Shown: one piece after another, positions 3,305-20,375 of the stretch
Layout of the letters: each line of letters begins with the position of its first letter
Position numbering within the stretch: position 1 is the first letter of the stretch
Assembly: GCA_017537745.1 (NCBI GenBank)
Contig: JAFYKF010000003.1
Location: forward strand, 1 to 32,025
Length of the DNA stretch: 32,025 nt
Direction of reading: 5' to 3'
Source of the DNA: Candidatus Saccharimonadota bacterium
GTDB lineage: Bacteria > Patescibacteriota > Saccharimonadia > Saccharimonadales > Saccharimonadaceae
The notes under the pieces: model-generated
The model's input: only the letters and a program-made list of their open reading frames with translations
Told to the model about the DNA's origin: nothing
Databases searched by the model: none
Position numbers and translations under genes: made by a program

Positions 3305-3832
3305 ATGGAAGATAGCCGCAATCTAATAGATGAATTAAAAGGTCTTACTAATGAACAAGTTTTTGATACCCTAAATCAAAAACGTAACAGCTTAGAAATC
3401 GCCATTGAAAACGTCGAGCACGATTTCAATATCGGCTCCATTGTGCGCACGGCTAATTCTTTTAATGTCTCAAAAGTCCACATTATTGGTAAGAAAAAAT
3501 ATAATCGTCGTGGCGCTATGTGTACGGATAAATATTTGAAAATTGTTCACCATCCTACATTGGAGGATTTTCTCAAGACTCAAAAAGACAGAGAACTTAT
3601 TGCTATCGAAAACAACACTCCTCGCGCCAAACCCCTTCATGAAAAACAATTTACAGATAATACCACACTTATTTTTGGCTCCGAAAACTCCGGTATCACC
3701 GACGAGTTATTAAAAGCCTCCACCGACGTTCGTTACATCGAAAGTTTTGGCTCCACTCGTTCCGTTAATGTCGGAGCCGCTGCCGCCATCGCCATGTACG
3801 AATGGACTCGCCAGTGTGTTCTCAATAAATAA
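3305..3832 (+). CDS. SpoU/TrmH-family RNA 2'-O-methyltransferase
   Basis: A SPOUT-fold methyltransferase that adds a methyl group from S-adenosylmethionine to a ribose 2'-OH in tRNA or rRNA. All three family motifs are visible: motif 1 around N42-IGSIVRTANSF with R48, motif 2 LIFGSENSGI (122-131) and motif 3 SFGSTRSVNVGAAAAIAMY (147-165), which forms the knot and binds the cofactor. At 175 residues it is a catalytic domain with no L30e-like substrate-binding domain, as in TrmL or TrmH-type single-domain enzymes. No Shine-Dalgarno precedes the ATG; the -10 is 7 nt upstream, so translation is probably leaderless. The target nucleotide is unknown. Confidence 0.9.
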   Translation: MEDSRNLIDELKGLTNEQVFDTLNQKRNSLEIAIENVEHDFNIGSIVRTANSFNVSKVHIIGKKKYNRRGAMCTDKYLKIVHHPTLEDFLKTQKDRELIAIENNTPRAKPLHEKQFTDNTTLIFGSENSGITDELLKASTDVRYIESFGSTRSVNVGAAAAIAMYEWTRQCVLNK

Positions 3833-3834
3833 AG

Positions 3835-4071
3835 CTACATCTTTCCAGTTGCTAGACCAAAGATAAAAGTCAGAATTATAACATGTAGATTCATCGCCAC
3901 AAGAAGCCCCACTATTACACCAATTACACCGTATCGCTTTACCTTATCGTACGATGATACGCCATCAGCTAACCCGTGTGAAATTTGCCTATAAAAAATC
4001 ACCACAAGCCCACCGGCAATCGAAATCACGATCCCCGCTATCATCCATCCAATGCTAAATGTAAAATCCAT
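3835..4071 (-). CDS. Small membrane protein, two transmembrane helices
   Basis: A 78-residue protein of unknown function. Hydrophobic segments lie at about residues 8-26 (WMIAGIVISIAGGLVVIFY) and 48-74 (VIGVIVGLLVAMNLHVIILTFIFG), separated by a short polar loop (RQISHGLADGVSSYDKVKRY), so it should form a helical hairpin in the membrane. It converges on the SpoU gene with 2 nt between the ends. The start is supported by a TGGTATAAT exactly 6 nt upstream of ATG on the minus strand, the leaderless arrangement found repeatedly here. No Shine-Dalgarno is present. Confidence 0.75.
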   Translation of the reverse strand: MDFTFSIGWMIAGIVISIAGGLVVIFYRQISHGLADGVSSYDKVKRYGVIGVIVGLLVAMNLHVIILTFIFGLATGKM

Positions 4072-6619: not shown

Positions 6620-6694
6620 TGGTGGGGATATGTGGACTTGCCCTGCCGAACGCAGCCAATGTCCCGCCTTTTCAAGTTTTTGCACCAACAAAAA
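6620..6694 (-). repeat. tRNA-tail module downstream of tRNA-Ile
   Basis: This 75-bp unit starts right after the CCA of tRNA-Ile (reading the minus strand) and ends in a 21-bp exact copy of that tRNA's T-loop-to-CCA 3' end (6620-6640, identical to 6695-6715). Its first part is alignable with the unit after tRNA-Asn (20231-20300). GTCC at 6661-6664 can pair with GGAC at 6634-6637, and CTGC/GCAG (6643-6646, 6652-6655) forms an inner hairpin. Confidence 0.7.
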
Positions 6695-6702
6695 TGGTGG
6701 GG
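6681..6702. repeat. Right 22-bp direct repeat (att-like) at tRNA-Ile 3' end
   Basis: The partner of 4101-4122. It covers the CCA and the first bases of the tRNA-Ile acceptor strand plus 14 nt downstream. CACCA/TGGTG inside it can also form a small hairpin. Confidence 0.8.
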
Positions 6703-6771
6703 ATATGTGGACTTGAACCACAGACCTCGTCATTATCAGTGACGCGCTCTAACCAGCTGAGCTATATCCCC
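6695..6771 (-). tRNA. tRNA-Ile (anticodon GAT)
   Basis: The minus strand folds as a full cloverleaf: acceptor GGGGATA/TATCCCC, D arm with AGCTCAGCTGGTTAGAGC, anticodon loop CTGATAATG giving GAT, T arm TGTGG-TTCAAGT-CCACA, discriminator A and an encoded CCA (6695-6697). It lies 7 nt downstream of tRNA-Ala and is probably cotranscribed with it. Its 3' end overlaps the right direct repeat of the candidate element. Confidence 0.97.
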
Positions 6772-19468: not shown

Positions 19469-20224
19469 ATGGCAGAAACACTTAAACCCAACAATGAAGA
19501 ATTAGCGCCAAACGACGCTAGTCAAGCATGGCTGAAAATGAGTAAGGAAGTTGAAGAATTAAGTCAATCAACTGCAAGCGCTACACCGGAAAAATCCGAT
19601 GACGATTCGTTTGCGCCTGCTAGGGGTAGGCGCGATTGGTATAGTGCAGCACCACCAAAGATCAATGCAGAATCCCAACCTCCAGTCACAGAAGTACGCA
19701 ATGCACCGACCCCAAACAGAGAATCATCAAAGAGTTCCACGGGGGAAGAATTGCTATATAAGTTCTTGGATGGGGAAAAACCAGGGCCATACACTGGCGA
19801 AGAATTTGACAAATTTCTTGATGCGGCATTTAGGTATGATTCTCGCGATAGAAAAAAAGATTCAGCTAATAATATGGCTAACCAATCAAAAACCTCTATG
19901 GATGAAGAATTCGCAAAAACGATAAAGTCACTCTCTGGCGAAGAATTCGACAATCTTCTAGATAAGGCAAGCGAAAGCGCTTGGTCTGATGTCGAAAGCC
20001 AACCGGATGCCACACATACAGCGGTCGAAGCACAAAAGGCAGCAATCGCGTCCATAACCGAAGATGCAAAGCGTGCGGAAGATGAAATGAATAGATTTAT
20101 TTATGGGGCTCCCCAGGCACCAGTTCCGCCACAAGCTCGTTATGAACAGCCAGCCACCACCCAGGCGCCAGCCGCATCAAATGAAAAAAGGGGGTTGTTT
20201 AAGTTCTTTGGTAAAAAGAAATAA
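19469..20224 (+). CDS. Hypothetical low-complexity protein
   Basis: A 251-residue, largely disordered protein without a signal peptide or membrane segment. Residues 1-90 are rich in Ser, Pro, Glu and Asn. Three copies of a short motif then occur: TGEELLYKFLDG (about 90), TGEEFDKFLDAAF (about 108) and SGEEFDNLLDKAS (about 155), probably short amphipathic helices. A charged helix (VEAQKAAIASITEDAKRAED) precedes a Pro/Gln-rich stretch and a basic aromatic tail, EKRGLFKFFGKKK, that could touch the membrane or RNA. It follows the surface-protein gene but has its own -10 and Shine-Dalgarno (GTGAGG). I do not recognise a family. Confidence 0.65.
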   Translation: MAETLKPNNEELAPNDASQAWLKMSKEVEELSQSTASATPEKSDDDSFAPARGRRDWYSAAPPKINAESQPPVTEVRNAPTPNRESSKSSTGEELLYKFLDGEKPGPYTGEEFDKFLDAAFRYDSRDRKKDSANNMANQSKTSMDEEFAKTIKSLSGEEFDNLLDKASESAWSDVESQPDATHTAVEAQKAAIASITEDAKRAEDEMNRFIYGAPQAPVPPQARYEQPATTQAPAASNEKRGLFKFFGKKK

Positions 20225-20251
20225 AAAAAATGGCTCCCCCGGCCAGACTCG
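20223..20251 (-). repeat. 29-bp direct copy of the tRNA-Asn 3' end
   Basis: A run of eight A followed by TGGCTCCCCCGGCCAGACTC and G is identical to 20293-20321, which is the 3' end of tRNA-Asn plus its downstream T run (minus-strand reading). The copies are 70 bp apart. Confidence 0.95.
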
Positions 20252-20300
20252 CCCGCGAAGCACCGATGTCTGTCTTTTTGATGTTTTTTCCCAAAAAAAA
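20231..20300 (-). repeat. tRNA-tail module downstream of tRNA-Asn
   Basis: This 70-bp unit follows the CCA of tRNA-Asn (minus strand) and ends with a copy of that tRNA's T-loop-to-CCA segment. Its non-tRNA part aligns with the unit behind tRNA-Ile, sharing TTGG, AAAAA, GACATCGG/GACATTGG, TGC, TTCG, GGGC and AGTC in the same order. Bases 20268-20272 (GTCTG) can pair with 20244-20248 (CAGAC). Confidence 0.7.
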
Positions 20301-20375
20301 TGGCTCCCCCGGCCAGACTCGAACTGGCAACCTCGAAGTTAACAGCTTCTTGCTCCACCATTGAGCTACAGGGGA
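20301..20375 (-). tRNA. tRNA-Asn (anticodon GTT)
   Basis: The minus-strand cloverleaf has acceptor TCCCCTG/CGGGGGA, D arm AGCTCAATGGTGGAGC, anticodon loop CTGTTAACT giving GTT, T arm GCCAG-TTCGAGT-CTGGC, discriminator G and an encoded CCA. The -10 (TGCTATAAT) ends only 8 nt before the mature 5' end, so the primary transcript should start at or within 1-2 nt of it. A T8 run follows the CCA directly. Confidence 0.97.

Follow-up and report, generated by a model that had tools for sequence, protein, structure and literature searches.

Small hairpin-forming units behind tRNA genes of Saccharibacteria are probably recent insertions that duplicate the tRNA 3' end

Genomic islands and phages that integrate into tRNA genes use attachment sites in the T loop and leave the tRNA intact after insertion, and a block of identity from the T loop to the CCA end is the classic attachment region. 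Casposons also insert at the 3' end of a tRNA gene, with a target-site duplication of 14–15 bp, and in vitro their casposase also accepts the ends of single-stranded DNA and ssRNA for integration (PMC6977970). The attC sites of integrons fold into hairpins that have a variable tip, extrahelical bases and an unpaired spacer; they are recognized by their structure, not by their sequence, and occur in arrays (PMC2727003). Finally, according to one report (PMC5934647), IS608 relies on base pairing to pick its target, and this choice can be re-programmed.

Here we describe dozens of tiny hairpin-forming inserts that stand directly behind tRNA genes in ruminant-gut Saccharibacteria and carry an arm complementary to the copied tRNA tail. 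Judging from empty sites and local tails, these units resemble casposons in their position at tRNA 3' ends and in their target-site duplication. However, casposons are large elements with terminal inverted repeats and genes for Cas1 and PolB, whereas the units carry no genes and duplicate mostly 18–22 bp (T loop to CCA); the Cas1 (PF01867) that defines casposons occurs in one of 25 genomes here, and in none of those with scanned units. The units also form arrays, and their bulged base (mostly a purine) and variable apex may liken them to the folded attC sites. Unlike integron cassettes, they have a tRNA-specific arm and a tail duplicated from the host tRNA, and they carry no gene; the sole tyrosine recombinase found in the genome under study (G000) is XerC/D-like (259 bits to XerD) and, at 126.8 bits, falls below the cut-off of 265 of the integron integrase model TIGR02249. 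Small size and hairpins are shared with IS200/IS605 and REP/RAYT elements, but no Y1 transposase (PF01797) exceeded the curated cut-off in 25 genomes, and the target duplication of the units is long. With tRNA-integrating islands and phages, the units have in common the target region and the intact tRNA, but they come without an integrase-bearing element, both of their tails are local and their arm covaries. Literature searches for repeats associated with tRNAs in Saccharibacteria yielded nothing of relevance.

The window, i.e. the whole stretch of 32,025 nt that was analysed, contains two units, behind tRNA-Asn and tRNA-Ile. Their parts are as follows, read from the sequence, with other sources in brackets:

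20301..20375, minus strand: tRNA-Asn(GTT), the host gene, with CCA encoded (ARAGORN; Rfam RF00005)
20252..20300, minus strand: 49-nt insert of the Asn unit, comprising an A/T-rich hairpin, an A5 leader, the arm and the apex (unit family)
20284..20300, minus strand: H1 of the Asn unit, a T8-GGG-A6 hairpin directly 3' of the CCA (H1 is found across the family)
20264..20272, minus strand: arm of the Asn unit, CAGAC-A-TCG, which pairs with the start of the tail copy, with a bulged A (arm/tail covariation)
20252..20263, minus strand: apex of the Asn unit, GTGCTTCGCGGG, class A (comparison across units)
20231..20251, minus strand: tail copy of the Asn unit, CGAGTCTGGCCGGGGGAGCCA, equal to tRNA-Asn from C56 to A76 (CCA) at 21 of 21 positions
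20223..20230, minus strand: T8 3' of the Asn tail copy, the same as 3' of tRNA-Asn itself
6695..6771, minus strand: tRNA-Ile(GAT), the host gene (ARAGORN)
6641..6694, minus strand: 54-nt insert of the Ile unit, missing at the homologous locus of the relatives G018 and G003 (empty site; flank alignment)
6657..6664, minus strand: arm of the Ile unit, GGAC-A-TTG, which pairs with CAAGTCC
6620..6640, minus strand: tail copy of the Ile unit, equal to tRNA-Ile from C56 to CCA at 21 of 21 positions

The Asn unit is 70 nt long (20300–20231, a 49-nt insert plus a 21-nt tail copy) and the Ile unit, built on the same plan, 75 nt (6694–6620, 54 nt plus 21 nt). Since the T8 stands 3' of both tail copies at the Asn locus, the repeat there reaches 29 bp. 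A first-pass annotation of the window had described both units, and its coordinates and sequences were borne out on re-reading. The core that it had aligned by eye, GACATNGG..GGGCNAGTC, has exactly two occurrences in the window and none in 100 dinucleotide-preserving shuffles. The compensatory stems that it had noted, CAGAC/GTCTG for Asn and GGAC/GTCC for Ile, are real, and they are longer than it had given, because TCG/CGA and TTG/CAA extend the pairing past the bulged A. As minimum-energy folding of single units did not favour the arm/tail stem (z-scores near 0), the evidence for this stem is comparative. An Rfam search of the window returned only tRNA and SSU rRNA, and a search of the units and of the class F sequences described below gave no credible match; positions 1–81, which lie at the edge of the contig, are the 3' end of a 16S rRNA gene.

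Similar units recur behind other tRNAs of this genome. When a copy of the tRNA's own 3' tail was sought within 300 nt downstream of all 46 tRNA genes, 17 had one, compared with about 0.5 (~1%) expected from swapped tails and one in upstream DNA; this count, made by a single rule, includes a neighbouring tRNA-Pro pair as a copy and omits the degenerate Ser(CGA). Copies matching at 19–21 of 21 bases follow Ala(GGC), Arg(CCT), Asn, Gln(TTG), Glu(TTC), Ile(GAT), Ser(GCT), Tyr, Val(GAC) and Trp, with two units each behind Gln(TTG) and Ser(GCT), and degenerate or shorter ones follow Leu(GAG), Ser(CGA), Asp, Cys, Thr, Phe and Met. Among congeneric relatives, which are largely or wholly metagenome assemblies and for which only part of each genome's tRNAs was covered, own-tail copies were found behind 11 of 32 tRNAs in G006, 13 of 33 in G007, 13 of 31 in G012, 8 of 36 in G018 and 6 of 23 in G004, against ~1% for swapped tails. 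Over a locus set biased towards units, own tails matched in 106 of 320 cases and swapped tails in 13 of 2,996. Outside the genus, of 35 tRNAs taken from scattered families, 3 are followed by a tail copy.

The family comprises at least five apex or payload types and is thus wider than a single core. For the subclass with the apex TTCTTCGAAT (or TTGTTCCAAT), a scan across the 84,980 species of GTDB yielded 75 stretches, about three quarters of them from Candidatus Saccharibacteria, mostly of the ruminant gut, while the remainder look like chance; the tRNA-linked matches come from ruminant-gut Saccharibacteria nearly throughout. There, nearly all such units stand behind a tRNA, of about 15 isotypes in total, with a tail match of 18–21 of 21 and often in tandem. 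The subclass is present in 32 of 116 genomes of the genus, and a reversed control pattern gave no matches. A loose class-A pattern searched phylum-wide retrieved mostly ordinary tRNA anticodon arms and no convincing unit outside G000. In viral contigs, the class-B pattern had no match, and of 77 matches to a looser class-A pattern, the one that obeys the arm rule looks like chance.

After the CCA, a typical unit begins with either a real terminator or a small hairpin that has an A5 leader; the arm, the apex hairpin and the tail (T-loop C56 to CCA) follow in this order. Inserts are mostly 36–170 nt long and contain no open reading frame. The arm is complementary to the tail over its first 7–8 bases, and in many units a single base, mostly a purine, bulges out three pairs away from the junction. 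Arm and tail covary: in 42 unbulged units of class B, 92.2% of the cells are paired versus 82.5% after shuffling, the covariation score is 0.260 versus 0.078 (reached in 0 of 500 shuffles), both sides change in 6 of 11 pairs, and position 59 occurs in all four Watson-Crick types (UA15, CG13, GC8, AU3). By direct Watson-Crick counting, 33% of 129 units have an arm that matches the unit's own tail at 8 of 8 positions, compared with 3% for swapped tails. G.T accounts for 10 of the 94 non-Watson-Crick cells and is therefore not enriched, which suits pairing between DNA strands. The start of the tail copy varies by class, giving copies of 31 down to 8 nt. In Gly(GCC), whose T loop lacks CGA, the copy begins at CGAG in the T stem, so that sequence, and not the place in the tRNA, would seem to decide where the copy starts.

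The presence of units is patchy among congeners, and the corresponding empty sites are precise. Alignment of the flank past the last tail copy with what lies behind the corresponding tRNA in unit-free genomes gave 22 usable cases, after exclusion of one further row as a repeat artefact; the flank begins at the very first base after the CCA in 8 of these and within one base of it in 11. For the Ile unit of the window, the flank is 79% identical to that of G018 over 182 nt, from base 1 to base 1 after the CCA of tRNA-Ile. One insert has moved between lineages: behind Val(TAC), G006 and G018 carry inserts that are 99.4% identical over 169 nt, although the genomes average 72% identity (80 alignments of at least 300 nt) and the flanks on both sides are unrelated. 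In each genome, both tail copies equal the end of the local tRNA (CATCAC in one, CACAAC in the other). A single crossover with a donor tail cannot yield two local tails, but a target duplication can; this argument rests on one strong pair and on weaker ones. The arm is the same in both and fits the changed tail one pair less well, i.e. the arm stayed constant while the tail changed, and it therefore travels with the element. The inserts behind different tRNAs of one genome are only slightly more similar than expected (permutation p = 0.0125). Another recent transfer between G006 and G018 is a 1.4-kb stretch of 96.6% identity (L158:18349–19756 and L172:904–2316).

Taken together, the units resemble miniature mobile elements of a new kind that have tRNA genes as their targets. 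They are probably recent insertions that duplicated the 3' end of their target tRNA, and neither RNA decoys nor ordinary att remnants. With moderate confidence, we regard them as non-autonomous miniature insertion cassettes that enter tRNA genes at the 3' end and duplicate the segment from T loop to CCA, so that the tRNA stays intact and a copy of the host's tail closes the cassette. The class-dependent start of the tail copy counts against this model, as it would be unusual for a single transposase; so do the negative enzyme searches, the only slightly raised similarity of inserts within a genome and the four stand-alone units described below. The first-pass annotation had proposed one family of tRNA-linked miniature elements with tails that follow the host tRNA and with compensatory stem changes, and had suggested a search for more copies. 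Many were found, behind other tRNAs of the same genome and in relatives; these surveys, the contrast between own and swapped tails and the arm/tail covariation over the family uphold all three points. Its suggestion that tails arose by crossover in the T loop is not the best explanation, because in the clearest case both tails are those of the recipient tRNA, with an insert from elsewhere between them, and the empty sites are flush with the CCA; the tail copy thus behaves like a target-site duplication. Nor are its other options, an att remnant, a CCA-ended decoy or a processing device, favoured, given that no long integrase element was seen and that a terminator-like T run separates tRNA and hairpin in at least a quarter of the units.

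Which enzyme could mobilize such cassettes? Reverse transcriptase (PF00078) is absent from G000, G018, G462, G489, G496 and G498, several of which are rich in units, and together with Y1 transposase and Cas1 it fails as a general mobilizing enzyme. (Two to four reverse transcriptase domains, in ORFs of ~370–440 aa, occur in G007, G195, G012, G442 and others, and none in close relatives.) Flanks of up to ~13 kb held no integrase-bearing long form between tail copies, and no tail copies beyond 1.3 kb were seen in the flanks examined; a 1.25-kb interval between tail copies in G018 has a dehydrogenase-like ORF and no integrase. The mobilizing enzyme would act in trans, and could be a host enzyme or one outside the families searched.

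The arm, which is borne by the element, may serve as a base-pairing guide. The mobile form would then be a single-stranded molecule that pairs through its arm with the target strand from C56 onwards, the apex hairpin would set the 3' end of the element against C56 for strand joining, and subsequent gap filling would duplicate the tail. We consider it possible, though tentative, that insertion is guide-directed: an ssDNA or RNA element with a programmable arm that pairs with the T-arm strand of a chosen tRNA, an apex hairpin as the splint that joins its end at C56, retargeting to another tRNA by a change of arm, and an enzyme that is of a novel kind or that serves the host in repair or tRNA metabolism. 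Should the arm act as a guide, the units would constitute a natural system of insertion directed by base pairing, in which a safe site is built in and for which testable guide–target pairs already exist in the sequences; it would also account for a large class of unannotated repeats in Saccharibacteria. The units may be among the smallest mobile DNAs described, and they occupy up to ~40% of the tRNA genes in small genomes with the tRNAs undisrupted.

Alternatively, the units could be functional RNAs in the tRNA 3' trailer, such as a processing signal, a sponge or a CCA decoy, in which selection maintains hairpin and tail while gene conversion maintains tail identity. Some units (L239, L259, L301, L302) lie between the tRNA and a terminator, the next tRNA or a ribosome-binding site and are therefore probably co-transcribed; moreover, H1 loops resemble stable RNA loops, and the class F payload is structured, with 16 of 23 pairs covarying. 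However, 35 of the 129 units have a T run past the first 15 nt and ahead of the hairpin, as in a terminator. The patchy presence among congeners with precise empty sites, the lack of G.U enrichment in the arm pairs and the local tail of the recently moved insert also speak against this explanation, which we find unlikely. Slightly less plausible still is a mutational by-product without mobility, by which template switching during replication at the tRNA T-arm leaves the start of the tail copied in inverted orientation and the tail itself duplicated. The quasi-palindromic structure, duplications that sometimes extend past the CCA into the terminator and the failure to find a mobilizing enzyme would fit, but one 10-nt apex recurs at ~60 loci behind many isotypes, a 169-nt insert is near-identical across genomes of 72% identity, and the class F payload is conserved. 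Internally deleted remnants of tyrosine-recombinase elements that once integrated at the T loop are very improbable: although the identity block coincides with the classic attachment region, and XerC/D-like and other tyrosine recombinases are present in the genus, no integrase-bearing long form or viral class-B site was found in the searches above, the arm is complementary to the tail, one apex stands behind ~15 isotypes, and conservative integration leaves one donor tail where G006 and G018 have two local ones.

Tandem and mixed arrays also speak for the insertion-cassette reading, and several loci are exceptions to the common plan. The L244 array combines different units with one common tail, and two neighbouring units of L232 have a common arm with one mismatch to the tail. 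In a five-unit array behind tRNA-Gln (L285, minus strand, 3638–3990), the tails share three changes relative to the tRNA, and the CCA has become TCA in the two distal copies; since these tails agree with one another and differ from the tRNA, internal duplication also contributes to the evolution of arrays. In L245, at the end of a contig, tRNA-Ile is followed by a Val-tailed unit, which could reflect an assembly join. A second route of movement is suggested by four stand-alone units (L272, L283, L289, L297), each of which retains its complete tail after a short match (~4–9 nt) to the end of that tail. At L171:533–1860 in G018, a 1.2-kb stretch with a dehydrogenase-like ORF lies between two near-identical Gly-tailed units and may be a gene-carrying cassette or a rearrangement. 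Lastly, the payload of class F has the form of a structured motif without an Rfam match, GTAGGA-NNN-GA-[AT-rich hairpin]-GA-NNN-GACGCC. Of 247 genomes from the order, 37 have this motif, mainly within the family of the window; it often lies behind tRNAs, sometimes flush with the CCA (L163:6970–7040, L244 minus 2799, L229:11122, L389 and others); in the genome of the window, it follows tRNA-Met (G000:C6:91775–91837).
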